DNA from: a virus
DNA length: 60,297 nt
Direction: 5' to 3' (one strand)
IMG/VR virus record: IMGVR_UViG_3300017941_000009
Location: 1 to 60,297 of that record
This document shows positions 13,644 through 55,813 of this stretch, piece after piece. The stretch's first letter is position 1, and every line of letters starts with the position of its first letter. The position numbers and the translations under genes were made by a program. The notes under the pieces are model-generated. The model searched no databases. It was not told the origin of the DNA and was given only the letters and a program-made list of their open reading frames with translations.

Positions 13644-13853
13644 GTGAGGCGTATCAGCGCGCCTGGCCCGGGGAGGGACCTGGAGGGGTTCGAGGCGGCG
13701 ATGCGTACCGCTGGCCTTTTCAAGTCCGGGGTGGTCACGGAAGTCACGGTGGAACATGACCGCGGGTGTCCCTGCCCGAAAGGTGCCTCAAGCGAGTCCT
13801 GTACGTGTCGGCGTGTGACGGTAGTCGAGCGACGATCACTGCCTGAGATGTGA
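13644..13853 (+). CDS. Hypothetical small Cys-rich protein, 69 aa
   Basis: HDRGCPCPKGASSESCTCRR gives a possible zinc or metal site with CxC pairs. Located just before the terminase. GTG start one base after the preceding stop. No family recognised. Confidence 0.55.
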   Translation: MRRISAPGPGRDLEGFEAAMRTAGLFKSGVVTEVTVEHDRGCPCPKGASSESCTCRRVTVVERRSLPEM

Positions 13854-13861
13854 GGGGTAGC

Positions 13862-14509
13862 ATGGCCAAGACGAAGCGCCCCACCGGCCGCCGCAAGGCG
13901 CCCGCCGGCGCGAAGAAGAAGGCCCCACCCAAGCCGCGGGTCCGTCGGACCGATGATGTTGCACGTGCAACACCCCTGGCCCAGCTCACGGGCAAGCGGC
14001 GTACGTTCGCGCAGGAGTACGTCCTCGACCACAACGCCACGAAGGCCGCGGAGCGGGCCGGGTACAGCGCCAAGACGGCAGCGCAGCAAGGCTACCGATT
14101 GTTGAGAAATGTTCATGTGGCTGCCGCCGTGGCGTGGCTCGAGGAACGCATCGCGGAGAAGAACCTCGTTACAGCGGATCGGGTCCTCCGTGAGCTGTTG
14201 ATCCTCCTCGACAGCGACGTCCGGCACTTCCTCGTGGACAACGACGGTCAGCTTCAGCTCGCCGCCGGCGCGCCGGACACCGCGTGGCGTGCGGTCTCGA
14301 GCGTGAAGCACAAGACCACCACCTACGGCAACGGCGAGCGCGAGACCACAGTGCACGAGGTGGAGTTCCGGCTGTGGGATAAGCCGGCCGCGGCGCGGAT
14401 GTTGGGCGAGCACCTGGGCCTCTTCCCCCACAAGATCGACCTGTCGGACGTCACGAAGCTGACGGACGAGGAGCTCGCCGCCCGGCGCAAGGCGCTTGGG
14501 CTGAAGTGA
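13862..14509 (+). CDS. Terminase small subunit, 215 aa
   Basis: DNA-recognition subunit of the packaging motor. A basic N-terminal tail (Lys/Arg-rich, residues 1-30) is followed by LTGKRRTFAQEYVLDHNATKAAERAGYS, the signature of the Terminase_2 small-subunit family with its HTH. The middle and C-terminal parts would form the oligomer and the large-subunit contact. ATG at 13862 is chosen because a GAGGGG ribosome site precedes it; a GTG at 13850 adds four residues. The stop overlaps the large-subunit GTG. Confidence 0.85.
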   Translation: MAKTKRPTGRRKAPAGAKKKAPPKPRVRRTDDVARATPLAQLTGKRRTFAQEYVLDHNATKAAERAGYSAKTAAQQGYRLLRNVHVAAAVAWLEERIAEKNLVTADRVLRELLILLDSDVRHFLVDNDGQLQLAAGAPDTAWRAVSSVKHKTTTYGNGERETTVHEVEFRLWDKPAAARMLGEHLGLFPHKIDLSDVTKLTDEELAARRKALGLK

Positions 14510-16038
14510 CCACCCCGCCGGCGCGGCTGGAGCGGTATGCGCTGGAGCTGGAGACCGAGTACCGGCGCCGGCTCCGCGCCCCGGTGTCCGAGCGTCAGGT
14601 GCTGACGTTCCGGCAGTTCATCTGCAGGGTCCACCCTCGGTTCATCTGGTACACGCACTGCGAGCGCCTGGTGGCCGTGCTGCAGCGCGTGGCCGACGGC
14701 GAGATCAAGCGCCTGATCGTGATGGCGCCGCCGCGGCACTCGAAGTCCGAAACCGTCACGCGGCTCTTCAGCGCCTACCTGGTCTACCGCTTCCCCGAGC
14801 GCTGGGTCGGGCTCGCGGCGTACGGAGCGCAGCTCGCCTACACGTTCTCGCGGGCCGCGCGGGCCTTCGCGCGCGCCGCGGGTATGGAGTTCCAGGGCGA
14901 TGCCGAGGCGGTCGAGCAGTGGGAGACCACGAAGGGTGGCGGCCTGTGGGCGGCCGGCGTGGGCGGGCCGGCGACGGGCAAGGGCTTCCACTGCGGGATC
15001 TTGGATGACCCCCTGAAGAACGCCGAGGAGGCTGCCAGCGCCACGATCGCCAACCGGAACCAGGAGTGGTGGGAGTCCACGTGGTACACCCGCCAGGAGC
15101 CGGATGCGGCACTCGTCGTCATCCTGACGCGCTGGCCAGGGCCCGCGGATCTCATCGGCTGGCTCTTCGAGCAGGAAGCGGCGGACGAGCACCCGGAGCA
15201 CTGGCACATCATCGCCTTCGAGGCAGAGAAGTCCGAGGAGCCCTACCCCATCCCGGCGACCTGCACGCTCGAGCCGGACTGGCGGCAGCCGGGCGAGGCC
15301 CTGTGTCCGGAACGCTACCCGCTCGAGAAGCTCCACAAGCTGGCGAAGCGCATTGGCTCGTACTTCTGGAACGCCCTGTACCAGCAGCGGCCTGGCCCCC
15401 GCGAGGGCGGGCTCTTCAAGTACGACTACTGGAAGCTCCTCGAGGCGGTGCCGGCCGTGGGCCGGATGGTGCGCTACTGGGACACGGCGGGCACCGACAA
15501 GAAGGTCGGCAACGACCCCGACTACACGGCTGGCGGCCTGCTCTGCAGGATGGAGGATCTCTGCACAGCGATCGTGGACGTGGTGCGGTTCCGTTACTCG
15601 CCGGCCCGCCGCGATGCGAGGATCCTCGAGGTGGCGCGCGCCGACCTGGAAGCCTATCGTGGTCGCGTGACGTGGTGGTTCGAGACGGAGGTGGGCGTCC
15701 AAGGTGAGGAGCGCACGAAGGCGATCGTGAAGCGGTGTCAGAACCTCGGCCTGACCGTGCACGCGGAACACCCGACCGGGAGCAAGCGCGGCCGCGCTGA
15801 GCCGTTCGCCGCCGCGGCGGAGGCCGGCAACGTCTATCTCTGCCCCGGCGAGTGGCGCGATGGGTTCCGCGCGCGGGCGGCGGACTTCACCGGCGCCGAG
15901 GGCGGCGAAGACGACGAGCTCGACGCGGTCGACGGCGCGTACGCCAAGCTCAACGATGACGAGAGCGCCTTCGGTCCGCCGAAGCCGGCGTCGGAGCGGA
16001 AGAAGGTCCGGCCCCTGTTCGCGAGGGCCACGCCATGA
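14506..16038 (+). CDS. Terminase large subunit, 510 aa
   Basis: ATPase-nuclease that drives DNA into the prohead. Walker A is APPRHSKSE at about residues 74-82, Walker B is GILDD at 164-168. The nuclease half starts with MVRYWDTAG (D326) and ends with DDELDAVDGAYA near residue 480, the usual acidic residues of the RNase H-like fold. Length is normal for a headful or cos terminase of the gp17/TerL_N kind. GTG start overlaps the small subunit. Confidence 0.93.
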   Translation: MTTPPARLERYALELETEYRRRLRAPVSERQVLTFRQFICRVHPRFIWYTHCERLVAVLQRVADGEIKRLIVMAPPRHSKSETVTRLFSAYLVYRFPERWVGLAAYGAQLAYTFSRAARAFARAAGMEFQGDAEAVEQWETTKGGGLWAAGVGGPATGKGFHCGILDDPLKNAEEAASATIANRNQEWWESTWYTRQEPDAALVVILTRWPGPADLIGWLFEQEAADEHPEHWHIIAFEAEKSEEPYPIPATCTLEPDWRQPGEALCPERYPLEKLHKLAKRIGSYFWNALYQQRPGPREGGLFKYDYWKLLEAVPAVGRMVRYWDTAGTDKKVGNDPDYTAGGLLCRMEDLCTAIVDVVRFRYSPARRDARILEVARADLEAYRGRVTWWFETEVGVQGEERTKAIVKRCQNLGLTVHAEHPTGSKRGRAEPFAAAAEAGNVYLCPGEWRDGFRARAADFTGAEGGEDDELDAVDGAYAKLNDDESAFGPPKPASERKKVRPLFARATP

Positions 16039-17643: not shown

Positions 17644-17906
17644 TGGGCCAGCGCCAGCGGCGGCACCGCGCCGGCGTGGCGCTTAGTTCCCTCCCCGTGG
17701 GGGCTATCTTCTACCCTCCGCGGATGACGCAACGGCTCATTGAGCGCTGGCGGGTGTGGGGTCCGGGGCACCACGGCGGCGTCTTCGTGCAGGAGCGCGT
17801 GCTGCATCGGGACGGGGGCCGGTGCCGCTACGCCTGGGGGCCGGCGGTGGAGTGGTCAGGTGGGGTGCTGGTCGAACCCGTGGGGCGGAAGCGAAAGACC
17901 CGATGA
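17643..17906 (+). CDS. Hypothetical basic protein, 87 aa
   Basis: Basic at both ends with a Trp/Gly-rich middle (RVWGPGHHGGVFVQERVLHR). ATG at 17643 is in the overlap with the upstream stop. No family recognised. Confidence 0.55.
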   Translation: MGQRQRRHRAGVALSSLPVGAIFYPPRMTQRLIERWRVWGPGHHGGVFVQERVLHRDGGRCRYAWGPAVEWSGGVLVEPVGRKRKTR

Positions 17907-18646
17907 ACCCCTCGACGGATCTCACGATCGTGACGACCGTCACGAGCGGCTACGCGAAGTTCCTGCCGGAGTGGGCGGCCAGCCTCGCGGCGCTGAAGTC
18001 GCCGGCGGCGGTCGGCATCATTCTGGGCAACGGCCTGGGCAAGAGGGGCCGGGACATCTGTGCGGCGGTGGAGAACCCCAAGGGGGCGACACCCCTGTAC
18101 TACACCGATGCCGCCTTCATGCCCTGTGGGCAGGCGCGCAACCTCGCAGTGGGATCCTCGGCGACTCGCTGGGTGATGCACCTCGACGCCGACGATACGC
18201 TCCTGCCCGATGCCCTCGAGACCATCGCCGCGGTGGGCGACGACGCCGACGTCATCCAGCTCGGGTACGAGCACTGGTGGCCCGGCAACCCCCACGGCTA
18301 CCCGCGGAAGCGGCTGTACGAGGCGTGCACGGGCCTCGAGGCGCTGGATGCGAAGGCGATCGCCTCGGGCTGCTCACCGTTCCGGAAGAGTCTGTGGGAG
18401 CAGTGGCGCTACCCGGAGCAGCTCGAGGCGAGCTGGGACTACGGCCTCTGGCTGGGCTTCGCGCACCTCGGTGCGCGGTTCCGGCCGACGAAGCGTCCTG
18501 TGTTCAAGTACCGGCAGTGGGGCGGGTCGCACTGGCGGAGGGTGGGGCAGCACCGACACGAGAACCTCCTCGCGCTGCGGCGGTGCCTCGAGGCTGATTT
18601 CGCCGGCGCGCAGCAGGTGAACCTTCTCCTCGGAGCGATCTCGTGA
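17903..18646 (+). CDS. Glycosyltransferase, GT-A fold (family 2-like), 247 aa
   Basis: The N-terminal part is a Rossmann-like nucleotide-sugar domain: DLTIVTTVTSGYAKFLPEW, then VMHLDADDTLLPD with the DxD metal site at about residues 95-98. The C-terminal half contains the acceptor part with SWDYGLWLGFAHLG. Cytosolic, no membrane segment. First gene of the sugar cassette that follows the terminase; ATGA overlap with the gene before it. The donor and acceptor are unknown. Confidence 0.8.
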   Translation: MNPSTDLTIVTTVTSGYAKFLPEWAASLAALKSPAAVGIILGNGLGKRGRDICAAVENPKGATPLYYTDAAFMPCGQARNLAVGSSATRWVMHLDADDTLLPDALETIAAVGDDADVIQLGYEHWWPGNPHGYPRKRLYEACTGLEALDAKAIASGCSPFRKSLWEQWRYPEQLEASWDYGLWLGFAHLGARFRPTKRPVFKYRQWGGSHWRRVGQHRHENLLALRRCLEADFAGAQQVNLLLGAIS

Positions 18647-19398
18647 GCACTGTGCAACGACGGCGCGCCCACGCCCCAGAGGACGGGTACGACTTCGGCA
18701 ACAAGCGCCAGTACCGACGGACCATCTGGAATGGCTTCGCGCAGCTGGGGACAGATGGACACGCGCTCCTCATGCCAGCCCTGGAAGGTGATGAGATCGA
18801 CGAGGCGTTGCGTCACGGGTTCCGCGAGGACCACCTCCACGTCGTGGACCACAACCCCGCAGTGGTGGCAACCCTCAAGCGGCGCTACCCTCGCATCCAT
18901 ACCTACGGCGTGGACGTCGTGCGCGCCTGTCGTCGCATAGCGAAGAAGGGGATAGACCTCGTCGCCGCCAACTTCGACTTCTGTGGCCCCGTCTCCCCTG
19001 CGCTCTTTCAACGGGTCCAGCGCGTGGCAGCGATGCACTGTTGGGCTCCCCGGTCACGCCTCGCCGTGACGGTCCTGCGGGGTCGCGAACATGGGACGGC
19101 TCGTACGTGGCTCAGGCGGCGCCTGTTCCTCCAGACGGGACATAACTTCTGGCGCGGATCTGAAGTACGGGCGCTGGCATACGGGAGACCTTCCATCGCG
19201 GATCGTGCTCGCATCGGCGCGGTCGGTGAGGCGTTGATGGATTGGGGCTTCGCCTATGATCCTATGAAGATGACGGTTTGGCTGAGTCGAATCGGGACGT
19301 ACCGTAGTATCGCGGGCAACCAGACGATGCTCTGGATGATGTTCGAGAACGTGCGTGAGGGTGATGGACTCGGTGGCCCTGATGAGGAGGTGCGGTGA
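18643..19398 (+). CDS. Methyltransferase-like Rossmann protein, 251 aa
   Basis: The core reads like a class I SAM-dependent methyltransferase: GDEIDEALRHGFREDHLHVV, then DHNPAVVATLKRRYP (acidic residue after strand 2), and IDLVAANFDFCGP in the motif IV position. The usual glycine-rich motif I is weak, replaced by LMPALEGDEID. Related phage proteins are normally unassigned. The last third is less GC-rich than its neighbours. GTG start overlaps the glycosyltransferase stop. Confidence 0.5.
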   Translation: MSTVQRRRAHAPEDGYDFGNKRQYRRTIWNGFAQLGTDGHALLMPALEGDEIDEALRHGFREDHLHVVDHNPAVVATLKRRYPRIHTYGVDVVRACRRIAKKGIDLVAANFDFCGPVSPALFQRVQRVAAMHCWAPRSRLAVTVLRGREHGTARTWLRRRLFLQTGHNFWRGSEVRALAYGRPSIADRARIGAVGEALMDWGFAYDPMKMTVWLSRIGTYRSIAGNQTMLWMMFENVREGDGLGGPDEEVR

Positions 19399-19571
19399 AG
19401 CAGATCCTCGTCCAACTCCACGACGGCGACACCGTCGTGCCGAAGATGGATGGCTACGTCCTCGAGTGTTGCGGGTGCGGCCGGCGGCATAAGCTGGTGT
19501 TCCACGTGACGCGAGCGGGCCGGGCGAACCACGTGGCGTTCACGATCACGCGGCTGCGGAGGAAGCGATGA
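19395..19571 (+). CDS. Small zinc-site protein, 58 aa
   Basis: CCGCGRRHKLVFHV around residues 25-38 could form a half zinc ribbon, followed by a basic end (RLRRKR). GTG start and ATGA stop overlaps place it firmly in the operon. Resembles short phage proteins with a CGCG.H pattern; function unknown. Confidence 0.6.
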   Translation: MKQILVQLHDGDTVVPKMDGYVLECCGCGRRHKLVFHVTRAGRANHVAFTITRLRRKR

Positions 19572-19657
19572 GCGTCCTGCGCGACATCCTGCATGGCATC
19601 AAGCTCCTGTACTGGGACTATCCGCGCGACTTCATCCGCATCCTGAGGGGCCGGTGA
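19568..19657 (+). CDS. Very small protein, 29 aa
   Basis: MSVLRDILHGIKLLYWDYPR and a basic end form one amphipathic helix. Start overlaps the upstream stop and stop overlaps the next GTG, which supports translation despite the size. It might be a leader for the lipoprotein gene. Confidence 0.4.
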   Translation: MSVLRDILHGIKLLYWDYPRDFIRILRGR

Positions 19658-20673
19658 AGCACCTCCTGTTTGTGCTGGCACTGGCCGCGTGCGCCGCGGC
19701 ACCGACCGCGCCGGCGCACCGGGCCTGCGACTCGTGCCTGGTGCAGGATCGCCTGGCGGCCGATGCGAGCCTGGCCCTCCCCGACAGCCTGACCACCGTC
19801 GTAGTGAAGACCTACGATGGCGCGAACCAGGTCGTGCACCCCGATGCGATCGCGTTCCCGGTGCCGCTCCACGGCTGGCGCTACGGCCTCCTGGCGATGC
19901 CCTACCCGCCGCGGGAGGGCCGGGACCAGGTCGAGCGGCCCTCGCTCTGGGTGAGTAACAACCGGCGGTACTGGACGACGGTCACGGACAGCACGAAGAA
20001 TCCCATCGCTGCCGCTGTGCGCGGTCATATCTTGTCCGACAATTCCATCTTGTACGACACGGCGTTGGGCGGGTTGCGGATCTACTACCGCGAGAACGTG
20101 CCCAACACCCCGGACCACGTCCTCACGAAGACCTCGCCGGATGGGGGGCTGACGTGGAGTGCGGCCCGTGAGGTCCTCGCACCGGGCCCCAATGACGGCT
20201 TCCACGAGTTCGCCTATCTCTCGCCGACCGAGGTCTACCACCGGATGTGGTACGTCTCGGCGCAGGACGGCTGCTATTCGACGGCTTCTCTGCTCCACGA
20301 GCGGTCCTCGGTCGATGGCGAGCACTGGGGTGCGGAGACCACGGACAGTCTCGTGCAGCCGGGCTACGTGCCCTGGCACATCAACATCGTCTACGATGCG
20401 GCCAGCAGGCAGTACCTTGGCCTCCTCGCCGCTTTCCATCCCGCCGATGGCTGCGCGGCCACGGACCTGTTCCTGATCACGAGCGTGGATGGCACGCACT
20501 GGATGACGTATCCTCAGCCCCTGATGCGTGCGGCGTACGAGTCGACGTTCGTTGACCACGACGCGCAGGGGGCGACGATCCTGTTCTCGCGCATCGGGCC
20601 GGCGAACGGGGTGTTCACGCTGGCCATCCAGCACTACGCCTGGGCGGACCTGTACCAGAGGGTGACCCAATGA
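19654..20673 (+). CDS. Secreted lipoprotein with beta-propeller (sialidase/GH43-like), 339 aa
   Basis: The N-terminus is a lipoprotein signal: MKHLLFVLALAAC with the lipobox LAAC (C13), so the mature protein should be membrane-anchored in the host envelope or outer membrane. The remainder has repeated four-strand units, including TSPDGGLTWSAAREVL (an Asp-box-like turn) and SVDGEHWGAE / SVDGTHWMTY, as in sialidases and GH43 enzymes. Several conserved acidic residues are present, but I cannot name a catalytic set. Its place in a sugar cassette suggests it binds or cuts surface glycans, for example to block re-infection. Confidence 0.65.
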   Translation: MKHLLFVLALAACAAAPTAPAHRACDSCLVQDRLAADASLALPDSLTTVVVKTYDGANQVVHPDAIAFPVPLHGWRYGLLAMPYPPREGRDQVERPSLWVSNNRRYWTTVTDSTKNPIAAAVRGHILSDNSILYDTALGGLRIYYRENVPNTPDHVLTKTSPDGGLTWSAAREVLAPGPNDGFHEFAYLSPTEVYHRMWYVSAQDGCYSTASLLHERSSVDGEHWGAETTDSLVQPGYVPWHINIVYDAASRQYLGLLAAFHPADGCAATDLFLITSVDGTHWMTYPQPLMRAAYESTFVDHDAQGATILFSRIGPANGVFTLAIQHYAWADLYQRVTQ

Positions 20674-20903
20674 CGATCCCGGGACAGATCGGGACGTGGA
20701 CCAGCCCGAGCGGCGAGGTGGTGCCGATCGTGGAGCCGGCGATCAACACGCACGTGACCTGGGATGTCACGGCGGTGCTCGACGGCGTGATCCTGCCGAT
20801 GAACGTGGCGTACGCCAGCCTCCTGGCGCAGCGCGACTACTGGCGGCGCAAGGCGGACGAGGCGCGCACGGCGCTCGCCGACCAGAAGTCGGGCGGCCTG
20901 TGA
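20670..20903 (+). CDS. Hypothetical protein, 77 aa
   Basis: Beta strands in the first half (GTWTSPSGEVVPIVEP) and a C-terminal charged helix (RDYWRRKADEARTALADQ). ATG overlaps the lipoprotein stop. No family recognised. Confidence 0.55.
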   Translation: MTIPGQIGTWTSPSGEVVPIVEPAINTHVTWDVTAVLDGVILPMNVAYASLLAQRDYWRRKADEARTALADQKSGGL

Positions 20904-21109
20904 ACGGGAAGGGCTCGGCGCGGCGGCCCGCGGCCTTCGTGCCGCGGTGCGGGACGGTGCGGCACGTCTTCCTCGCCGGCTACGACCGCTGCGTCTGCGG
21001 CGAGCGCAAGCTCTCGGTGCCGCTGTACCGCGGCACGCTTCACCCGGTGGAGATTCCCTCGGAGTTCTATGAGGAGATTCTCCCCCTTGAGGCTCGGAGG
21101 AGGCGGTGA
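20900..21109 (+). CDS. Hypothetical basic protein, 69 aa
   Basis: Arg/Lys-rich start, a possible zinc pair (CGT...RCVCGERK) and a C-terminal helix. GTG start and stop both overlap neighbours. No family recognised. Confidence 0.55.
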   Translation: MNGKGSARRPAAFVPRCGTVRHVFLAGYDRCVCGERKLSVPLYRGTLHPVEIPSEFYEEILPLEARRRR

Positions 21110-21840
21110 GCGTTCACGTTTTCTACACGCCGCACCCGGACGACGAGACGCTCGGGATGGCCGGCGCGATTGCGCGGGCCAAGCGCGAGGGCCACCGCGT
21201 GGTGCTCGTGCTCCTGACGGACTCCATGCCGAGCAAGCGGTTGCAGCGGATCTTCCGGGGTGAGCTCCTCTGCCCGATCCACAACCGCTTCCACGTCTCG
21301 CCGGTGGACCTCGGGAAGGCGAGGATGGCGGAGTTCCGGGCGGCCGCGCGCAAGCTAGGGGTGGACGAGGTGAGCGAGGTCCACATCCCCGAGCAGATCA
21401 TCAGTGAGGACCGGGGTGGCTTCCTCGACAGCATCGTGGCGACTGTGCGGGGCTACGAGGCGCGCTACCCCGGCGCGGTGCACCACTTGGTGAGCGGCGA
21501 CCGCGACATCGCGATGCCGAACCTCCAAGAGACACACCGCACGCACCGGCTCTGCTGGGAGGCGGGACTGCAGCTCGCCGGCGAGGGGCTGCAGGTGCTG
21601 TTCCACCGTGTCTACGTCTACCGCCTGCCGCTGAAGTCGCGCTTTGAGGGAGTGCCGTGGTCTACGGCACCGCGGGTCGAGGTACTGGACGATGAGCTGA
21701 TGAGCGTGAAGCGGGCGGCGCTGGGGGCGTACCAAGTCTGGGATCCCCCGCGGGATCGCATCGCCTTCGCCTACCACTCGGTGCCGGATCTCTTCGAGGG
21801 AGCCGGCAGCGACCCGCACGAGTACGTGGACCTGCCGTGA
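21106..21840 (+). CDS. PIG-L/LmbE-type deacetylase, 244 aa
   Basis: Zinc-dependent N-deacetylase that removes acetyl groups from N-acetylglucosamine-type sugars. The signature HPDDE is at residues 10-14 (YTPHPDDETLGMAGAI), with RVVLVLLTD at strand 2 and a third His likely in ETHRTHRLCW near residue 146. Lack of a signal peptide means it acts on nucleotide sugars or cytosolic glycoconjugates. It sits among glycosyltransferases and probably supplies or trims a modified amino sugar. Confidence 0.85.
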   Translation: MSVHVFYTPHPDDETLGMAGAIARAKREGHRVVLVLLTDSMPSKRLQRIFRGELLCPIHNRFHVSPVDLGKARMAEFRAAARKLGVDEVSEVHIPEQIISEDRGGFLDSIVATVRGYEARYPGAVHHLVSGDRDIAMPNLQETHRTHRLCWEAGLQLAGEGLQVLFHRVYVYRLPLKSRFEGVPWSTAPRVEVLDDELMSVKRAALGAYQVWDPPRDRIAFAYHSVPDLFEGAGSDPHEYVDLP

Positions 21841-21845
21841 GTGGG

Positions 21846-22010
21846 TCAGCCGCGGCGCGCGAGCACCTTGAGGTGGGTCACGTGCGTCTTGTGGCGCAGG
21901 TGGAACTGGTGCATCAGTTGGCGGCCGAACTCCTGCATCGCGCGGAGTATCACCACCTGCTGGTGCGCGAGGTGCTTGACGTGGGCAACGTGGTCGGTAT
22001 GCGCGGACAT
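21846..22010 (-). CDS. His-rich small protein A, 54 aa
   Basis: Encoded against the flow of the late operon. ATG at 22010 has a strong ribosome site (AAAGGGAGG) five bases ahead. The product has 10 histidines in 54 residues (SAHTDHVAHVKHLAHQQ at the start, FHLRHKTHVTHLKVLARR at the end), spaced as on one helix face. It is a paralogue of the gene just upstream (22023-22169). The plus strand is also open here (21837-22196), so direction rests on the ribosome site and the paralogy. Possible metal or nucleic-acid binding. Confidence 0.6.
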   Translation of the reverse strand: MSAHTDHVAHVKHLAHQQVVILRAMQEFGRQLMHQFHLRHKTHVTHLKVLARRG

Positions 22011-22022
22011 CGGAACCTCCCT

Positions 22023-22169
22023 TTAGTGGCGCCTGGCGAGCACCCGCTTGTGGCGCAAGTGGATGAGGTGCTGGTAGTGGTAGATGATGTGGCGCACCAT
22101 GATGTCGTACTGGCGCGCCAAGTACGCGACGTGGTTCAGGTGCTTGACGTGGTCGGTATGCGCGGACAC
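22023..22169 (-). CDS. His-rich small protein B, 48 aa, paralogue of A
   Basis: GTG at 22169 follows GAGAGAGGG. It begins SAHTDHVKHLNHVAYLARQ and ends HLIHLRHKRVLARRH, matching protein A at both ends with a shorter middle. Twenty bases after the start codon (TCCGCGCATACCGACCACGT) are identical between the two genes, which indicates tandem duplication. Eight or more histidines in 48 residues. Function unknown. Confidence 0.6.
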   Translation of the reverse strand: MSAHTDHVKHLNHVAYLARQYDIMVRHIIYHYQHLIHLRHKRVLARRH

Positions 22170-22244
22170 GGGGCCCTCTCTCGGGATGAACAGTGAAAGG
22201 CGCGGTACTATGATGATGCGCGATGCACGCACGAGCAAGACGCC

Positions 22245-22517
22245 GTGAGCGTCTACGTCGATCACGTGCGGAACTGGGGCTGGAGGCTGGGGCCGAACGC
22301 GCACCTGTTCGCGGACTCTCTCGAGGAGCTGCACGCCTTCGCCCGCACACTGGGACTGCGGAGCGACTGGTTCCAGAACCGACCGGACTTCCCGCACTAT
22401 GACTTGACGGGGAGGCGGCACGCTGCGGCGCTCCGTCATGGAGCCACGCTGGTCAGCAACCAGTTCGTGTTCGAGCGCCTGCAGGTCAACCGTGCAGCGC
22501 GAGAGGCAACGCCGTGA
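22245..22517 (+). CDS. DUF4031 protein, 90 aa
   Basis: The run VYVDHVRNWG, then HLFADSLEELHAFARTLGL, WFQNRPDFPHYDLTGRRHAAAL matches the DUF4031 family, a small conserved phage and bacterial protein of unknown role often encoded near nucleic-acid enzymes. Length is typical. GTG at 22245 is the first start after the minus-strand pair; a weak -10-like TACTAT lies just upstream. Confidence 0.8.
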   Translation: MSVYVDHVRNWGWRLGPNAHLFADSLEELHAFARTLGLRSDWFQNRPDFPHYDLTGRRHAAALRHGATLVSNQFVFERLQVNRAAREATP

Positions 22518-23245
22518 AGGTCTCGATCCTCCTCCCGGCCCATGAGCGGCCGGCGCTGCTGATGCAGGCGATCGCCAGTGCCAGCGCGCAGGAGTTCCTG
22601 GCTGACGAGTACGAGATCGTCGTCGTCCACGACGGCCTCGATGCCGACTGGCTGCCGGTCTCGGACTGGGGGCCTCCCGTGCTGCGCGTCCACGCGATCC
22701 CGCACAAGAGCCTCGGCGCCGCCATCAACGCCGCGGCAAACCTGGCGCGTGGCGACTACCTGACGGTCCTGCCGGACGACGACCTAATCCGGCCGCACAA
22801 GCTGCGCGTTCTGATGGCGGCGCTCGAGGCGCACCCCGAAGCAGATGGTGTGTACGCCCGGCCCCAGTACATCAACGGGGACGGCGAGCCGATCGAGACG
22901 CCCGCCCGGCTCCGCGAGTGGCTGCTCGAGCATCCAGTTGTCACGCCGGCGAGCTTCGCCAGGGACGGGTTGATGGTCCACGGGGTCGCGACAATGTACC
23001 GGCGCGCGGCGTGGCTCAGCACGGGCCCGTGGGATGAGACCCTGCCGACCGCAGAGGAGTGGGAGTGGCACGTGCGGTTCTTCTACACGGGACACACGCT
23101 GGTCGCGGTGGACGCCGTGACGGACTACTACCGGGTGCACGACGCGCAGAAGAGCCGGCGGAAGGCCCGCGGCCAACGCACGCGGCGGGAGGTCCTCGCC
23201 GGGATCCGCCGGCGCTATAGCCCCTGGCCCGAGCAGTACCGATGA
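22514..23245 (+). CDS. Glycosyltransferase family 2, 243 aa
   Basis: Classical GT-A fold: VSILLPAHERPALLMQAI at the start, EIVVVHDGLDADW (HDG motif, residues 39-41), GAAINAAANLARGDYLTVLPDDD (DDD at 88-90) and a C-terminal EEWEWHVRFFYTG in the acceptor region. Cytosolic and of normal length. GTG start overlaps DUF4031. It would add a single sugar; the acceptor is not shown. Confidence 0.88.
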   Translation: MKVSILLPAHERPALLMQAIASASAQEFLADEYEIVVVHDGLDADWLPVSDWGPPVLRVHAIPHKSLGAAINAAANLARGDYLTVLPDDDLIRPHKLRVLMAALEAHPEADGVYARPQYINGDGEPIETPARLREWLLEHPVVTPASFARDGLMVHGVATMYRRAAWLSTGPWDETLPTAEEWEWHVRFFYTGHTLVAVDAVTDYYRVHDAQKSRRKARGQRTRREVLAGIRRRYSPWPEQYR

Positions 23246-23754
23246 ATCAGCTTGTGTACCGCGACGAGAACCTCGAGCTCTGGCACGGCCATGCGGCCGA
23301 TTACGAGGGGCGGCGGCCAGACCTCATCTTCACGAATCCCCAGGCGTGGCTGCCGAAGACCTTCTCGGGTGTGCCGATGCTGCTGCACCAGCGACTGTGC
23401 CGCAAGAGGGCTTTGGCGCGCTGGGCGCACGTCCACGAGCGCGACCTCCATCTCATCAGCCTGTGGAACAATGGGCGTGAGGCGTTCTGGACCGTGAACA
23501 TCGAGGTGCCGTGCTGGGTGGAGCTCGGCCGGTATGTCCCGGACCCGCCCGGCCGGTGGCCACTGGGCCTCGCGGACAGCCTGCTGGAGGTCTACGGTAC
23601 GGTGGGTGGCTTACTCTGGGACGGGTTCATGGGCCGTGGCACGGGAGCCAAGGCGGCACTCGGCGCGGGGATGTACTACGTGGGCATCGAGTGCCGGTCG
23701 GAAGCCATCGAACTGGCACGGGCCTATCTCCACCTCGCTCCGGCGGGCGTGTGA
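23242..23754 (+). CDS. DNA methyltransferase-like protein with altered motif IV, 170 aa
   Basis: The circular order of an N4-cytosine/N6-adenine beta-class enzyme can be seen: a start like LVYRDENLELWHGHAADY, motif IV position DLIFTNPQAWLP (about residues 27-38), and C-terminal motif I, WDGFMGRGTGAKAALGAG, then YYVGIECRSEAIELARAYL. Active enzymes carry (D/N/S)PP(Y/F/W); here it reads NPQA. The protein is short and lacks an obvious target-recognition domain. Either a degenerate enzyme or one with a new substrate. Confidence 0.6.
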   Translation: MNQLVYRDENLELWHGHAADYEGRRPDLIFTNPQAWLPKTFSGVPMLLHQRLCRKRALARWAHVHERDLHLISLWNNGREAFWTVNIEVPCWVELGRYVPDPPGRWPLGLADSLLEVYGTVGGLLWDGFMGRGTGAKAALGAGMYYVGIECRSEAIELARAYLHLAPAGV

Positions 23755-25538
23755 AGCCGCCACCGAGTCCGTGGGAGGACCGGCACCCCGAGGGGCTGGT
23801 CCTTCGGCCTTGGCGGCCGGCGCCAGAGCCCCGGACGCTCGTCTCCTGCACCATCCTGCGCTCGCGGGACGTCCCGCTCTGGCTCGAGCGGGCGCCGAGC
23901 TGGCGACCGGGGGTGGACCGCTCGATCGTGGTCCTGGGGTCGTGGAGCGAGAAGGAGCCCTCTGCGGTAATCGAAGGTGCCTCGAAGCAGCTCACCGCGC
24001 TGGGCGTGAAGGTGATCCTGCCTCCCGCCGGAGGCTGGCCGGACCAGATCGCCAAGCGATCGGCCTACTTCGCCCGGCTGTCCCCTGGAGAGGTCGCCTT
24101 CATCGTCGATGCGGACGAAGAGCTCGTAGAAGGGCCCGAGGCGCTGCGCCAGGCGGCCGCGGGGGCGTTTGACGTGGGGTGGCTGACCATCGAGGCCCAC
24201 CCGCGGTACGAGCGCGTCTACGGGCAGCCCAGGCTCTTCCTGGTGCCTCCGGAGGGATTGCTCTATCGGGAGCGCCATCACTGGGTATTCACTACCGACG
24301 GCCGGCTGGTGGCGGGCCACAGCTACGGGGGAACCGGCTGGCTGCACGAGCGGGTGCCGCTCACCCTCATCAACCAGGGCGGGAAGCGCCTGCTGGCGCA
24401 CCGGCGGCAAGTGCAGAAGGAGCAGCAGTTCAAGCACTCCGCGTTGGACAGCGGGGCGGACAAGATCGAGCCGTTGTTCATCGCCCAGGTGATGCGGTAC
24501 GACGCGGGGCTGGCCGCCTACCGGCTGCACAGTGCGATCAACTCCACGACGCGAGAGCGCAGCCTGATGCTGTGCGAGGCGGGGAACAACCCCCTCGCCG
24601 GGCCGCTGCAGTACGACCTCGCCGACCGCAGTCTGGCGCGGGGGATCATGGCCGGCGCCGACATCCTGCACTGTCACCTCGACTACACCGGCCTCGCTGC
24701 CGTGGGCGGCCATCCCGACCAGCCGGTGATCATCCACCATCATGGCACGATGTACCGCCGGGATCCCGAGCGGGCGGACCTGCTCGACCGGCGGGCGGCG
24801 CTGCGGCTCGCCAGCACGATGAACCTCCTGCTGCTCGACAAGACCGGCACGCTCCAGTGGCTGCCGAACCCCGTGCCCGTGGCGCTCTACCGCCGAATGG
24901 CAGCCGCGGCGCACGCCGAGCGCCAGGGCCTCGCGCACGAAGTGTGGATCGCGCACTCGCCCAGCAAGCCGAAGCTGAAAGGCACAGGCGAACTCCTGGC
25001 CGTTGTGGAACGCCTGCGGAAGAAGCGTCTCAAGGTGCGGCTGCAGCTCACGATGGGCGTGCCGCACGCCCAAGCACTGTGGACGAAGGCGGCGTGCGAC
25101 CTGTGCTTCGATAGCTTCTGGCTGGGGATCCAGGTCTCGGGGCTCGAGGCGGCAGCGATGGGCCAGCCGGTGCTCGCCGGCGATCAGGACACCGCCGACG
25201 AGTACGTGCGGCGCGTGGGGTCCCTGCCGTACACCTTCGTCACGCCGGAGACGCTGGAGGAGGTCCTCGAGCGGCTGGTCGTGGACGCGGACCACCGGGC
25301 GGAGGAGGCGGCGCGCGTCGGCGCCTATGTGCTGCAGTACCACGACGAGCCGGCGGTCGCACGACGCTACCTCGAGCTCGTGCGCGCAGCGCTGGCCGGG
25401 CAGTGGCGGCGTCGGCTGCGGGACGCCGTGGACACCGAGCGCAAAGTGCTGGCGAAGGCACTGCGGCAGGACGTGAAGACGGATGTGCAGGTCGTCGGTA
25501 CGGACTTCCGCTTGGGCCCGCGCGTGCGATCGCTGTAA
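23751..25538 (+). CDS. Two-domain glycosyltransferase (GT-A plus GT-B), 595 aa
   Basis: The N-terminal domain (about residues 25-230) looks like a GT2-type GT-A enzyme: TLVSCTILRSRDVPLWLERA, and FIVDADEELVEGPEALR with the acidic metal site near residue 118. The C-terminal domain (about 270-560) looks like GT4/GT-B: ADILHCHLDYTGL, HHHGTMYRRD, NPVPVALYRRM, and SGLEAAAMGQPVLAGD near residue 462. The start is GTG at 23751, overlapping the previous stop; an open frame continues upstream but over the methyltransferase gene. Two transferase activities in one chain suggest sequential building of a glycan. Confidence 0.75.
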   Translation: MKPPPSPWEDRHPEGLVLRPWRPAPEPRTLVSCTILRSRDVPLWLERAPSWRPGVDRSIVVLGSWSEKEPSAVIEGASKQLTALGVKVILPPAGGWPDQIAKRSAYFARLSPGEVAFIVDADEELVEGPEALRQAAAGAFDVGWLTIEAHPRYERVYGQPRLFLVPPEGLLYRERHHWVFTTDGRLVAGHSYGGTGWLHERVPLTLINQGGKRLLAHRRQVQKEQQFKHSALDSGADKIEPLFIAQVMRYDAGLAAYRLHSAINSTTRERSLMLCEAGNNPLAGPLQYDLADRSLARGIMAGADILHCHLDYTGLAAVGGHPDQPVIIHHHGTMYRRDPERADLLDRRAALRLASTMNLLLLDKTGTLQWLPNPVPVALYRRMAAAAHAERQGLAHEVWIAHSPSKPKLKGTGELLAVVERLRKKRLKVRLQLTMGVPHAQALWTKAACDLCFDSFWLGIQVSGLEAAAMGQPVLAGDQDTADEYVRRVGSLPYTFVTPETLEEVLERLVVDADHRAEEAARVGAYVLQYHDEPAVARRYLELVRAALAGQWRRRLRDAVDTERKVLAKALRQDVKTDVQVVGTDFRLGPRVRSL

Positions 25539-32216: not shown

Positions 32217-32719
32217 TCGCCAACCTCTTCCTCGGCGAGTCGGGAGGTGCCCGGCTGCTCGAAGCGGACCAGGGCAGCCACGACGACGGCGAGCGGGTCT
32301 ACGCGCGCCTCGAGACGGTGGCCGCTGGTCCCGGCCTCGGGGGCGAGGCCATCTTCACCGCCCTGTTCATTGGCATTGAGAACAATGCCGATGCGGACGT
32401 GGATGTGACGCCGATCATCACGGGGGCGAACGAGGATGGCACCCCGTTCGAGCGCGAGCTCGAGACCCAGCAGATCACGCTCCACGCCAGCGCGGAACGC
32501 ACGCGCGTCCAGTACCAGCTCGGCGTCTCCGACCCACTGATCATCGGCGGCGTCGAGGTCGGGCGGTTCGCCGCGCGCGCCACCTGGTTCCGGGTGCGCA
32601 TCGTGGCGCTGGTCCATTCGCCGGGCGATCTCCTCTTCCACGGTCTCGGCGTCGAGATGGAAGTCGTGCGCGAGGCCATCCCGACACAGGCGCCAGCGCC
32701 CGTTCCGGCGGGGTCCTAG
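32213..32719 (+). CDS. Tail-associated beta protein, 168 aa
   Basis: A beta-sandwich-like pattern ([40 protein letters not shown]) with a proline-rich tail. It lies between tail hub and fibre genes and is likely a fibre-linking protein. ATG at 32213 overlaps the previous TGA. Confidence 0.6.
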
Positions 32720-35700
32720 TGGCTGGCGGCTTCCGGCGCCAGACCAGTAAGGGGCTGCCACAGCCCCTCTTGCCCGGCGCAGCCGGCGCCGATCTCACGG
32801 CGCTCGTCCGCACCCTGGATTCCTACGTCATCGACCAGTGGGCGTGGAAGGAGCCGGCCACCCAGCGTCTCCTCTACGCCTACAAGGGCGGTACGGTCTT
32901 CACGGGCCTGGCCTTCATCCTGATCCCCGACGGCACGACCCCGCTCGCGGACAACGCCACCAACTACGTCGAACGGGATAGCGCGGGTGCCGTCTCGGTC
33001 AACAGCACGGGCTTCAGCGCCGCCCGGACGCCGATGGCGAAGGTCGCCACGGCCGGCGGCCAGATTGCGACCGTGGAGGACTGGCGGCCCCTGGCGCAGT
33101 CCTCGTCTGGGAACCTCTCGGGGCCCAGTGGCCCCTCTGGTCCCTCGGGCCCCGGCTCGACCGTGTCAGGCCCCAGCGGTCCCTCGGGTCCGAGCGGGCC
33201 GGCGTCTACGGTCTCCGGACCGTCTGGGCCGTCTGGTCCTGTGTCCACGGTCTCGGGCCCCAGTGGTCCCAGTGGCCCTAGCGGCCCCGTCTCGACCGTC
33301 AGCGGCCCTTCGGGGCCGTCGGGACCCTCCGGTCCAGGGGGCGCGGCCTCGACGGTCTCCGGGCCTTCTGGGCCCTCGGGGCCCCACGGTGCCGATTCGA
33401 CGGTGAGCGGGCCGAGCGGGCCATCTGGCCCGCAAGGTGCCGCTTCCACTGTGTCCGGGCCGAGTGGCCCTTCGGGTCCCCAGGGTGCAGCATCCACGAT
33501 CTCCGGCCCGAGCGGGCCGAGCGGACCGAGCGTCACTGGACCTTCGGGACCCTCGGGCCCTTCTGGACCGCAGGGGGCGGCTTCGACGGTCTCGGGCCCG
33601 AGCGGTCCCAGCGGCCCCGTCTCAACCACCAGTGGGCCTTCGGGTCCATCGGGCCCTTCCGGGCCGGGTGGTGCCGCCTCGACAGTGAGCGGCCCCAGCG
33701 GACCCTCAGGGCCCCAGGGAGCGGCCTCGACCGTCAGCGGTCCCTCAGGACCTAGTGGACCGCAGGGAACAGCAAGCACGGTAAGCGGGCCGTCTGGTCC
33801 TTCTGGTCCGTCTGGGCCGCAAGGAACTGCTTCGACGGTGTCGGGGCCGTCGGGACCGAGTGGACCCACGGGTGCCGCATCTACCGTCAGCGGACCGAGC
33901 GGTCCCTCGGGGCCGCAGGGGAACCCCTCGACGGTCTCGGGACCCTCCGGGCCCTCCGGTCCGAGCGGTCCTCAAGGCGCTGCCTCAACCGTTAGCGGGC
34001 CGAGTGGTCCATCCGGGCCACAGGGAGCAGCTTCGACGGTCAGCGGCCCTTCGGGGCCCAGTGGACCCACGGGAGCGGCATCCACGGTCTCTGGCCCGTC
34101 TGGGCCCTCGGGTCCGCAAGGGAATGCTTCGACGGTGAGTGGGCCCTCCGGCCCCAGTGGGCCGTCCGGGCCGCAGGGTGCCGCCAGTACGGTCTCTGGG
34201 CCGTCCGGACCGAGCGGGCCACAGGGCACTGCTTCTACGGTATCTGGGCCCTCGGGTCCTTCGGGTCCTCAGGGTGCAGCATCCACGATCAGCGGCCCCT
34301 CAGGCCCCTCCGGACCACAGGGAAACGCCTCGACCGTGAGCGGGCCGTCTGGGCCAAGCGGCCCTTCGGGACCACAGGGAGCGGCGAGCACGGTCTCTGG
34401 GCCAAGTGGTCCCTCAGGCCCTCAAGGCGCAGCTTCCACGGTCTCGGGGCCCTCCGGACCGAGTGGCCCACAGGGGAATGCCTCGACGGTCTCCGGACCG
34501 AGCGGTCCTTCTGGGCCTTCCGGACCACAGGGAGCTGCCTCCATAGTCTCTGGCCCCTCAGGTCCGAGTGGCCCGCAGGGCGCTGCATCGACCGTTAGCG
34601 GGCCGAGTGGACCGAGTGGACCCCAGGGTGCCGCCTCGACGGTTTCGGGGCCCTCGGGGCCGTCCGGACCGCAAGGCGCGGCATCCACGGTTTCGGGGCC
34701 GAGCGGGCCCAGTGGACCCACGGGCGCAGGGGGCCCGAGCGGACCTTCCGGACCCTCCGGGCCGAGTGTCACCGGCCCGAGCGGCCCCTCAGGACCCAGC
34801 GGGCCGGCGGGATCCCTGGCGCACCACGTCCTCTCGGCTACTCACACGGACTCCAATGCCGCAGCGGCCGGCGTGGCCCGCGGCGATCTCCTGGTGGGCA
34901 ATGCCACGCCGGCTTGGGACCGGCTCGCTTTCCCGGCCTCTCCAACCGGGAAGGTGGTCGTCGCCTCGGCGACGGACATCGGGTGGAGCGCGAACCCGCT
35001 CGGCAGTGCGGCGTGGGCGGCGACGGGGGACTTCGCTCCGGCGGCGGGGACCTTCACGAACACGATAACTCAAAGCCCCGCGACTGACGGGATAGATGGC
35101 ATCATCCTCAACGGCAGGGACTCGGTAAGCGGGAACCTCTACAATGTCTTCCGGCTGATAGCCTATGCCAATTCCGGCGGGGCGACTCCGACGTGGACGT
35201 TGGGAATCATCAATACTGCGAACTCTGCGTGGCAACCCGTACTAACGGCAGCGACCTCTGGCGCGGCGACCTTCGCGGCGGGCCTCACCATCGCCGGTGC
35301 GCTCGCAGGCGTGACGACGACACAGTTCCATGCCATCACCTATACGTGGCCCTCTGCTGATGCGGGAGCCAGCGGTTACGTCCTCTCCTCTAACGCCTCG
35401 GGCACTTTGAGTTGGGTTGCCCAAACGGCCGCCGCGGCGGTGACGAGTGTGGCCGGTCGCACAGGGGCTGTGGTACTGACGGCGGCTGACATCGGGGCGG
35501 GAACATTCCCGAGTGGTCAGTTCAAAATGGGTGGCACACCGTGGGCAGCTTCTCTTGATGCGCTTAACATGGGAGTTAACCAGAGGATTACGTTCCGTAA
35601 CTACAATGACAACGATGACGTTAGCATCAGTGGTGGCTTCAACGGCATATCGGGAAGTGCTCTTACTGTTACTGGATATGGACTAGAGGTGTTGAATCGC

Positions 35701-35832
35701 TTCGGCTGTAACGGCAAGTCGGCTCAACCCGCGTACGCATCCGGTGGTGCGGCGGGTGGGACTCTGGCACAGGTAACGACGTTGGCGAATAACATCCGGG
35801 CGGCGCTCGTTGCCGACGGTATCATGTCGTAG
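32719..35832 (+). CDS. Collagen-like tail fibre, 1037 aa
   Basis: Residues 1-132 form an N-terminal virion-attachment part ([33 protein letters not shown]). Residues about 133-698 are about 31 collagen-like units of the type [16 protein letters not shown]: Gly-X-Y triplets broken every 12 or 15 residues by a four-residue STVS-type interruption. The C-terminal 340 residues hold the tip, including [19 protein letters not shown], a motif seen in many phage fibres, and an end ([16 protein letters not shown]) typical of fibre C-termini. Ser and Thr fill the exposed positions, so it is a strong candidate for O-glycosylation by the nearby transferases. The last 270 bases are clearly poorer in G+C. 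Confidence 0.85.
33118..34815 (+). repeat. Collagen-like repeat array, about 31 units of 48 or 57 bp
   Basis: Units alternate between 16 and 19 residues. In the second half the 19-residue unit recurs after every two or three 16-residue units, and the unit before it often reads QGNA instead of QGAA, giving a higher-order repeat. Codons for Gly, Ser and Pro differ from unit to unit, so DNA identity between units is low compared with the protein identity. Confidence 0.85.
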
Positions 35833-36702: not shown

Positions 36703-36736
36703 ATGCCCAGGCGGGGCGCCTCAAGGGGCCGGGCAT
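36703..36736 (+). promoter_or_regulatory. Hairpin covering the start codon of the fusion gene
   Basis: ATGCCC (36703-36708) pairs with GGGCAT (36731-36736), and within it AGGCG (36709-36713) pairs with CGCCT (36717-36721). The right outer arm contains the first two bases of the ATG at 36735, and the ribosome site AAGGGG lies in between. Folding would hide the start. Confidence 0.4.
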
Positions 36737-38432
36737 GAAGTATTCCGGCCTCTTGTCGAAGCGGGACGCCGTCGTTCTTCAGCACTATGCGGCGAAGGCG
36801 CCGCGCATCCTGGAGTTCGGCGCCGGCGGCTCGACCCAGATCTTCGCGCAGTGCGCGCCGGGAACCGTCCTCACCCTCGACACGAACCCGCACTGGATCG
36901 ACCAGACCAAGGCCAGCCTCAAGGCGCTCAAGGTCCCCCCGGGCCGCGTGGCGTTTCGGCTGCTACCCCACGAGACGGGCCCGTCGCTGGACGCGGCGCT
37001 CCAGCGCGAGGCGGCGCCCCGTGCGCCGTATCACCTGGTGTTCAACGACGGCGCGAGCGACCACGAGATGCGGCTGGCGTTTGCCCGTGCCGCCTGGCCG
37101 CTGCTCGCCGAGGGGGGCGCACTCCTGACGCACGATACCCGCCTCCAGCCGGACATCGGATGGCTCTGTACATTTCTGGCGGAGCACTTCGCGACGGTGG
37201 GCCGCGTGTACGCGAACCACCGCGACAGCAACATCACCGTCGTCATCAAGCGCGCTCCATTGCCCTACGAACCCTTTGTCACCGCAACCGACTGGAGACC
37301 CGAGCCGATTATGCCCACCGTCCACCTGTTGGGCCTCGCACACACGATCACCCGCCCTGAGTTCTCGAAGTGCCCCTTCACGGGGAACCTCCTGCGGTTT
37401 CCCAAGATGCTGAAGCCTTTCGGTTACAAGTGCATCCACTATGGCGTCGAGGGGGCGCAGGTCCCCGGTGCGGAGTGTGTCGCGGTGACGAGCGCCGTGC
37501 GGTTCCGGCTGCAGCACAAGGGGCACTCGTGCGATCCGCGCAGTGAGGAGAGCCTCTGGATTCCGGAGGTCTACGAGCTCGACAAGCCGGCGGCGATCGA
37601 GCACCAGAAGGGCATCGTCAAGGCCCTCCTGCCGCGGCTCTCCCGCGGGGACATCGTGTGCTTCCCCTTCGGGCGGGTGCACGAGCGGGTGCTGGCGAAG
37701 CTGCCCCCAGACGTGGTGGCGATCGAAACCGGGATCGGCTACGAGCAGGAATCCTCCATGCCGTTCCAGGTCTTCGTGTCGAACGCCTGGTACTCGTGGC
37801 ACCGGGGCCGTGCGCGGAACATGAACGGCGACTACTACAAGTTCGTGATCGGCAACTCGTTCGATGTCGACGAGTGGACGGTGCGTCCCATCCCCAAGAA
37901 GGGGTATGTGCTCTACCTCGGGCGGTGCAACGAAGACAAGGGGATGCGGATCATCTACGACCTGGCCGCCGCGCGGCCCGACCTGCAGTTCGTCCTCTGT
38001 GGCCAGGGCGCGACGTTCTGGGCCCAGCTCCCGAACATGAAGGCGCTGCCACAGGTCTGGGGCAAGGAGCGGAACACGCTCTTTGCTGGCGCGCAGGTGG
38101 TGTTGATGCCGAGCCTGTACCTCGAAGCGTTCGGGAACGTCTGCGCTGAAGCCCAGCTCTGTGGGCGCCCGGTGCTGAGCACGCCCTGGGGGGCCTTCCC
38201 CGAGATCCTCGCGCACGGGGTGGCAGGCTACCACTGCCGCACCCTGGGGGACTTCCTCAAGGGACTCGAGCTGGCACCGACGCTCAGTCCCAAGGCGATT
38301 CGTGCGCAGGCGGTGGCGCAGTTCTCCCTGCCGGTGGCGGGCGCGAAGTATCACGCGGCCTTCCAGCAGTGCCAGGACCTCCTCGCGGGTCCCGGGTGGG
38401 CCTCGCGAACCCCCCACTGGATCAACGCATGA
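36735..38432 (+). CDS. Methyltransferase-glycosyltransferase fusion, 565 aa
   Basis: Residues 1-175 look like a class I SAM-dependent methyltransferase: ILEFGAGGST (motif I, residues 25-34), VLTLDTNPHWIDQTKASL, then LVFNDGASDHEMRLAFARAA. Residues about 195-555 form a GT-B glycosyltransferase: GYVLYLGRCNEDKGMRIIYD near 393, LQFVLCGQG, and the EX7E-type run LYLEAFGNVCAEAQLCGRPV near 463. The two activities may add and methylate a sugar as a cap. Located between fibre and portal genes. Confidence 0.75.
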   Translation: MKYSGLLSKRDAVVLQHYAAKAPRILEFGAGGSTQIFAQCAPGTVLTLDTNPHWIDQTKASLKALKVPPGRVAFRLLPHETGPSLDAALQREAAPRAPYHLVFNDGASDHEMRLAFARAAWPLLAEGGALLTHDTRLQPDIGWLCTFLAEHFATVGRVYANHRDSNITVVIKRAPLPYEPFVTATDWRPEPIMPTVHLLGLAHTITRPEFSKCPFTGNLLRFPKMLKPFGYKCIHYGVEGAQVPGAECVAVTSAVRFRLQHKGHSCDPRSEESLWIPEVYELDKPAAIEHQKGIVKALLPRLSRGDIVCFPFGRVHERVLAKLPPDVVAIETGIGYEQESSMPFQVFVSNAWYSWHRGRARNMNGDYYKFVIGNSFDVDEWTVRPIPKKGYVLYLGRCNEDKGMRIIYDLAAARPDLQFVLCGQGATFWAQLPNMKALPQVWGKERNTLFAGAQVVLMPSLYLEAFGNVCAEAQLCGRPVLSTPWGAFPEILAHGVAGYHCRTLGDFLKGLELAPTLSPKAIRAQAVAQFSLPVAGAKYHAAFQQCQDLLAGPGWASRTPHWINA

Positions 38433-52948: not shown

Positions 52949-53706
52949 GCGTCCCGATGCGACCGTTTACCTTCGCGGACGCCCTACGGCGCGCCCGGCC
53001 TGCGGCACAGGACGATACGGCCGTAGGGATCCAGCATCCCCGGGCACTCTCGAGGTTCGGCACCGGCGTACTGGCCGATCAACTTGACAACGTGCTGAGC
53101 CCCACGCCCAAGACCCCTGCGGTCATCGAACCCCGCGGCGGCGACTTCCCGAGTGCCTACCGCTTCGAGTTGAATCAGGAAGTCCCGGCGGGAGCGTATC
53201 GGCGGCACCCGGGCCGAATCCTCCAAGAGGGCGACTTCGGCAACGCCGGCCTTGATCCTATCGCGTTTCAGGAGGTCGAGCGACTGCATCCCGGATGGAC
53301 GGAATCAGCGATGCCCGCGGGGATCCCAGGCGAGGCAGTCGATGCCCCTGCCTCGTACGGCCCCCGTGCGACCCCTGTCGCGAAGGCACGGAACGCGAAC
53401 GTGGCACGTTCGGTCTATGCTGATATCTGGAACGAGTCGGGGGCAGGCACGCTACCAGAGCCACTCGCGACGATTCACTACGATGCGGCGGTCCAGCACG
53501 GGCCTGCGGTGGCGCTCCAGCTCCTTCGCCAGAGTGGGGGAGACCCGGCGACCTACGTGGACCTGCGCGAGGCACGCTACCGGGCCGACATGACTGCGCC
53601 GAACGCCAACAGTCCACGGGGATACTTCAGGGAGAAGCCCGCCAATCAGCGCGGCTGGGTGGAGCAGCGCATCCCGGCGTTGCGCAAGATTGCGAGGCGT
53701 CGGTGA
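52945..53706 (+). CDS. Virion protein with GH108/TtsA-like C-terminal half, 253 aa
   Basis: The last 110 residues (VYADIWNESGAGTLPEPLAT, IHYDAAVQHGPAVALQLLRQ, a Y..LR.ARY pattern and RGWVEQRIPALR) follow the second half of GH108/TtsA-type muramidases. The catalytic EGG...GG.T.NGIT part of that family is not seen in the first half, which instead is Pro-rich and unassigned. It may therefore bind rather than cut peptidoglycan. GTG start overlaps the giant gene. Confidence 0.55.
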   Translation: MSVPMRPFTFADALRRARPAAQDDTAVGIQHPRALSRFGTGVLADQLDNVLSPTPKTPAVIEPRGGDFPSAYRFELNQEVPAGAYRRHPGRILQEGDFGNAGLDPIAFQEVERLHPGWTESAMPAGIPGEAVDAPASYGPRATPVAKARNANVARSVYADIWNESGAGTLPEPLATIHYDAAVQHGPAVALQLLRQSGGDPATYVDLREARYRADMTAPNANSPRGYFREKPANQRGWVEQRIPALRKIARRR

Positions 53707-55693: not shown

Positions 55694-55744
55694 CGGGTAA
55701 AAGTAATGCCAACAGCCGGGTTGCGCCAGAACTATCTTGTCACC

Positions 55745-55813
55745 ATGCCCCTGGTCCGCCTGCGGAAGCTCCAGGCGCTGGGGCTCCTCCACACCACCGG
55801 GGCGATTCGATGA
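55745..55813 (+). pseudogene. Displaced original 3' end of the ATP-grasp gene (tail copy 2)
   Basis: The frame ending at 55813 encodes MPLVRLRKLQALGLLHTTGAIR with GC-rich codons typical of this phage and an ATGA overlap with the next gene. It is best read as the old end of the ATP-grasp gene, cut off by the HNH insertion. The longer open frame before it (from 55049) lies antisense to the endonuclease and is probably not translated. Confidence 0.6.

Follow-up and report, generated by a model that had tools for sequence, protein, structure and literature searches.

A candidate phage-encoded virion glycosylation system comprising a transferase cassette and a methyltransferase/glycosyltransferase fusion

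Introduction

Which molecule does a phage decorate when it carries several sugar-modifying enzymes: its own particle, its DNA or the surface of its host? The question is raised by the IMG/VR virus record IMGVR_UViG_3300017941_000009, a linear record of 60,297 bases with about 68% G+C, possibly an incomplete genome; the whole record is referred to here as the window. A cassette at 17903-25538 encodes two glycosyltransferases (GTs) of the GT-A type (GT-A1 and GT-A2), a double transferase in which a GT-A and a GT-B domain are fused (GTdbl), an LmbE-type de-N-acetylase and a small methylase-like protein. Further downstream, a collagen-like fibre gene is followed by a gene for a fusion of a methyltransferase and a GT-B transferase (the MT/GT-B fusion).

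Virion glycosylation has so far been documented in few phages. For the mycobacteriophages Che8, Corndog and Myrna it was described by Freeman et al. 2023, according to PMC12363180, PMC11256854 and PMC12619734. The window is probably best explained by a virion glycosylation system that the phage itself encodes, in two predicted branches, the cassette and the MT/GT-B fusion. A sugar coat would most likely lie on the virus particle itself rather than on DNA or the host, because relatives of the cassette nearly always adjoin capsid genes and those of the fusion collagen-like tail fibre genes.

Relatives of the cassette lie beside capsid genes

Substantial relatives of GTdbl were found by IMG/VR scans in 18 distinct contigs, which form 13 clusters at 80% identity. 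An HK97 major capsid gene is located upstream on the same strand, 0-3.7 kb from the GTdbl relative, in 16 of the 18 contigs and 11 of the 13 clusters. The spacing runs from overlap up to 3.7 kb and is no more than about 330 bases in eleven contigs; two representatives of these capsid genes were confirmed as members of the Phage_capsid family. The partners of GTdbl in the cassette (GT-A1, GT-A2, LmbE and the methylase-like gene) recur near its relatives with 31-44% identity. GT-A1 relatives are found directly 3' of GTdbl, joined to a second GT2 domain, and GT-A2 relatives (41-44% identity) adjoin GTdbl in five contigs. In two contigs (L101 and L113), LmbE and the methylase-like gene co-occur with GTdbl and GT-A1; the PHPDDE metal motif of LmbE is conserved, and the methylase-like relative (35% identical) directly precedes GTdbl, the same adjacency as in the window. 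The methyltransferases of the capsid-linked clusters show a distant relationship (4e-4) to the N-terminal domain of the window's fusion. Since relatives of the cassette genes cluster next to capsid genes, the cassette appears to be a conserved module of virion-gene regions. Searches of isolate phages with GTdbl, LmbE and the open reading frame (ORF) at 18643-19398 gave no relatives, and neither did a GTdbl profile scan of bacterial genomes. Collagen was not found in 12 GTdbl contigs by scans that also miss the window's own interrupted-repeat fibre. Ser/Thr-rich C-terminal tails on the capsid proteins were considered as a mark of glycosylation and rejected, the pattern being inconsistent.

GT-A1 is 37-40% identical over about 82% to mycobacteriophage transferases (Tweety gp104, DeadP and Wanda gp18). 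In Wanda, the homologue lies within a kinase-methyltransferase-GT cluster 3' of the capsid gene, and the GT-A half of GTdbl has a match (2.7e-9) in Wanda gp24. Tweety gp108, which shares a locus with gp104, is 90% identical to Che8 gp110. According to PMC12363180, Che8 gp110 and Corndog gp38 are essential to capsid glycosylation, and according to PMC12619734, glycans were observed on capsid and tail tube subunits, at their C-termini; both cite Freeman et al. 2023. The window shares with these systems the phage-encoded transferases and, with Wanda, a methyltransferase in the transferase cluster; it adds the fused GT-A/GT-B, the LmbE deacetylase and the MT/GT-B fusion linked to a collagen-like fibre. 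It differs in its SU10-like head proteins and in being known from its genes alone; BLAST comparison of the window GTs with Che8 gp110 gave no homology.

The contigs also bear on the main rival explanation, hypermodification of DNA, in which the transferases would glycosylate modified bases as a protection against restriction and the deacetylase and methylases would trim the base-linked sugar. Genes of the thymidylate-synthase fold and HMUDK_hel genes occur in 5 of 15 GTdbl contigs tested (L135-L139, siphovirus), one of which also has kinase and amino-acid:DNA transferase matches, and a C5 DNA methylase is present in four GTdbl contigs. The GT-B half of GTdbl shares its fold with T4 alpha-glucosyltransferase, and the cassette itself contains a DNA-methylase-like gene. 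However, in the five contigs a distance of at least about 10 kb separates the hypermodification genes from the capsid-linked cassette, and the window, although it may be incomplete, has no match to thymidylate synthase, HMUDK or C5 methylase; no base-preparing enzyme was found there. A Tet/JBP search gave no match in the window, nor in its controls. In the complete genomes of Wanda, Tweety and Che8, GTs of such clusters are present and HMUDK was not found. Unlike the T4 transferase and the hydroxymethyldeoxyuridine-type systems, the module is tied to structural genes, and DNA hypermodification leaves both the capsid and the collagen linkage unexplained. We regard it as a serious rival, although an unlikely one.

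The MT/GT-B fusion is linked to collagen-like fibres

The initial annotation had set the cassette next to the Ser/Thr-rich collagen-like fibre. The fibre itself is borne out, with a repeat region of 566 residues formed mostly by 16-residue units (four Gly-x-y triplets followed by STVS). The region contains 149 Ser and 39 Thr residues but lacks Lys, Arg and Glu, and Ser occupies 74% of the Y positions. As its repeats are interrupted, the fibre is missed both by a strict Gxy-12 scan and by a genome-level collagen family search, and is detected by Pfam on the protein. The cassette ends 7.2 kb short of the fibre; the enzyme that is close to it is the fusion, which begins 0.9 kb past its end.

Relatives of the GT-B half of the fusion adjoin collagen-like tail proteins in the cyanophages S-CBWM1 and ACG-2014f (29-35% identity). 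A collagen-like ORF is present in the flank of 57 of 80 IMG/VR GT-B loci and of 1 of 48 control phage loci; as the controls come from another phage type, the internal tests weigh more. When 80% clusters with enough flank are counted, 20 of 25 have a same-strand collagen ORF no farther than 4.5 kb upstream of GT-B, and 3 of 32 have one downstream. Over 16 whole records, the proximity of GT-B and collagen gives a combined p of 3e-5 (4e-4 once relatives are thinned). Thr or Ser is found at about 65% of the Y positions of the GT-B-linked collagens. The GT-B ORF exceeds 500 residues in 49 of the 80 loci, and all nine long ORFs sampled carry a C-terminal methyltransferase (eight Methyltransf_23/11, one FkbM). 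The fusion of the window differs from these sampled relatives, its methyltransferase being N-terminal and of the Methyltransf_24 family. That such fusions recur points to glycosylation and methylation of one and the same product.

An analogous arrangement is known in Clostridioides difficile, where the gene of SgtA is located immediately upstream of bclA3 and the enzyme transfers N-acetylglucosamine to Thr of collagen-repeat peptides, with Ser as an accepted alternative (PMC7157674). As there, the transferase gene in the window adjoins that of a collagen-like surface protein whose repeats carry Ser/Thr. By contrast, the predicted enzyme of the window is a GT4-like GT-B fused to a methyltransferase, phage-borne and encoded downstream of the fibre. 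The cyanophages ACG-2014f and S-CBWM1 share with the window a homologous GT-B just 3' of the collagen-like tail protein, but there it lacks the N-terminal methyltransferase, and ACG-2014f has a 2-oxoglutarate (2OG) oxygenase alongside.

This oxygenase is of the PiuC type, and the three genes for collagen protein, GT-B and oxygenase stand close together (L011:3169-8657). In a further locus (L026), a 2OG oxygenase lies just before GT-B; the two cases recall the hydroxylation of collagen that is followed by glycosylation.

Enzymes of the cassette

The interval 17903-25538 agrees with gene borders, and most of the enzymes predicted for it are confirmed by family or structure matches (Table 1): both GT-A transferases, the deacetylase and the double transferase, as is the methyltransferase-GT-B fusion after the fibre genes. 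In the AlphaFold2 (AF2) model of GTdbl (predicted local distance difference test score, pLDDT, 82), the N-terminal half carries a DAD motif and the GT-B half is closest to BshA and PimA (Z ~23). Glyco_tranf_2_4 is matched by 7 of 16 members of the GTdbl family. The LmbE profile matches diacetylchitobiose deacetylase at 1e-3.

Table 1. Genes of the cassette, the fibre region and the structural landmarks of the window
Feature	Position	Strand	Evidence
Terminase genes	13850-16038
GT-A1, GT2-type glycosyltransferase	17903-18646	+	PHROG 9549 (glycosyltransferase) 1.5e-39; LDADD motif; no transmembrane segment
ORF without family match	18643-19398	+	4-nt overlap with GT-A1; AF2 pLDDT 41
Putative lipoprotein	19654-20673	+	Lipobox LALAAC read from sequence; BNR_2 0.0012 (weak, BNR/propeller-like stretch); PHROG 37952 1e-10
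PIG-L/LmbE-type de-N-acetylase	21106-21840	+	PIG-L 2.5e-16, 60.8 bits against a curated cut-off of 28.2; PHPDDE metal motif
DUF4031 protein	22245-22517	+	PF13223 7e-19
GT-A2, GT2-type glycosyltransferase	22514-23245	+	Glycos_transf_2 1.5e-16
Small N6/N4-methylase-like protein	23242-23754	+	C-terminal part of N6_N4_Mtase, PF01555 3e-5; motif IV degenerate
GTdbl, fused GT-A (residues ~25-236) and GT4-like GT-B (~237-560)	23751-25538	+	AF2 model; structure matches
Collagen-like fibre	32719-35832	+	Collagen 1e-14; several tail fibre PHROGs
MT/GT-B fusion, N-terminal Methyltransf_24, C-terminal GT4-like GT-B	36735-38432	+	Methyltransf_24 3e-7; Glycos_transf_1 4e-14; PHROG 3408 1e-43
Major capsid protein	43009-44388

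The resemblance of the GT-B half to BshA, its closest structural match, could point to a small-molecule pathway, with a BshA/MshA-type transferase and a BshB/MshB-type LmbE enzyme producing a sugar metabolite, for example a thiol of low molecular weight. LmbE does match the BshB1 and MshB models, weakly and far below their cut-offs; a cysteine-adding enzyme was not recognised, and three transferases, methylases and a conserved linkage to virion genes do not fit such a pathway, which we consider very improbable.

Of the two methyltransferase-like genes in the initial annotation, one is retained. The small methylase-like protein has TNPQ at motif IV (TNPY in its relatives). The ORF at 18643-19398 gave no relatives and no family or solved-structure match in the searches, and its AF2 model is unusable; the methyltransferase label is unsupported for it. 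The gene for the DUF4031 protein, inside the cassette, had been overlooked. The intervening stretch 21841-22250, between LmbE and DUF4031, has no clear gene; it contains two imperfect 60-nt copies, 77% alike and 159 nt apart, which would give His-rich peptides if read on the minus strand.

The surface lipoprotein proposed for the cassette keeps its lipobox, its BNR match being weak, and its part in a glycosylation system is uncertain. With it, the cassette could modify glycans of the host surface, for serotype conversion or superinfection exclusion. Phage GTs are often read as host-surface modifiers (PMC7029224), and GT-A2 resembles the GTs of cell-surface polysaccharides. Yet no transmembrane segment was predicted in any of the cassette GTs, whereas Gtr-like serotype conversion would be expected to involve a membrane GT with a flippase or lipid-carrier enzyme; flippase, lipid-carrier enzyme and integrase were not recognised among the library matches of the window. 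The cassette is tied to virion genes, and the set of genes that recurs with it does not include the lipoprotein. We judge host-surface modification, which had been named beside DNA as a main alternative, to be improbable, and less likely than DNA modification.

Proposed function of the two branches

Virion glycosylation, which the initial annotation had put first, gains from the linkage to capsid and collagen-fibre genes, from the homology to mycobacteriophage GTs and from the GT-B/methyltransferase fusions. The aim of the cassette has to be revised. Because relatives of the cassette and of the fusion sit in different gene surroundings, the cassette is assigned to the capsid or virion and the fibre to the fusion, which lies outside 17903-25538.

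In the infected cell, the soluble GT-A1, GT-A2 and GTdbl would assemble a short glycan on one of the structural proteins from host nucleotide sugars. The target would most likely be the capsid or some other protein of the virion. LmbE probably strips the N-acetyl group from an added N-acetylhexosamine, and a methylase may cap the product, so that the glycan would be deacetylated and methylated. Separately, the MT/GT-B fusion would glycosylate and methylate the collagen-like tail fibre whose gene lies shortly before its own, probably at the Ser/Thr of the repeats. We infer the substrate proteins, the O-linkage, the identity of the sugars, the order of the steps and the benefit, which may be a sugar shield or altered adsorption.

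Several points weigh against this assignment. No virion glycan has been observed, the system being read from genes. In the window, the cassette is not adjacent to the capsid gene (43009) but lies 17 kb ahead of it, with terminase genes on one side and tail genes on the other. The fold does not separate protein from DNA acceptors (in the model, T4 alpha-glucosyltransferase reaches Z 21.6 against the GT-B half of GTdbl), and there are the thymine-hypermodification genes in five of the 15 contigs. The ORF at 18643-19398 is unexplained after family, structure and relative searches. The evidence for the collagen linkage is drawn mainly from aquatic and cyanophage-type phages, with only a moderate whole-genome p. 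Thr-rich Y positions are usual among bacterial collagens, so composition alone is a weak sign.

What virion glycosylation in the window would add to known systems is twofold: a capsid-region module that includes a fused transferase and a deacetylase, and, apart from it, a methyltransferase/GT-B enzyme directed at a collagen-like fibre. We give an even chance to a broader proposal: distant tailed phages (T4-like cyanophages, other aquatic phages and the SU10-like phage of the window) would have in common a dedicated enzyme for glycosylating and methylating collagen-like tail fibres, and a mobile multi-enzyme module with the fused GT-A/GT-B, and sometimes the deacetylase, would decorate capsids in many uncultured phages. 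If true, the scheme of virion glycosylation would reach well past the mycobacteriophage examples. The conserved capsid-linked cassette and the GT-B/collagen pair would imply that sugar-coated virions are common, with enzymes and targets named. A glycosylated and methylated collagen-like fibre would also give a new view of receptor-binding fibres, adsorption and evasion of antibodies or defence.

Other features of the window

The window has matches to an SU10-like adaptor and portal, and its tail and fibre genes are located between the terminase and capsid genes. An Rfam search of the window gave no match. A lone tRNA-Leu (cag) is found at 360-449, close to the left end. The 1660-residue protein encoded at 47966-52948 has a DnaJ domain (2.8e-5) and may be a large internal protein of the virion. 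At 53703-55813, a PurD-like ATP-grasp enzyme (5e-8) and the ORF that follows it are 50% identical over their last ~40 residues.

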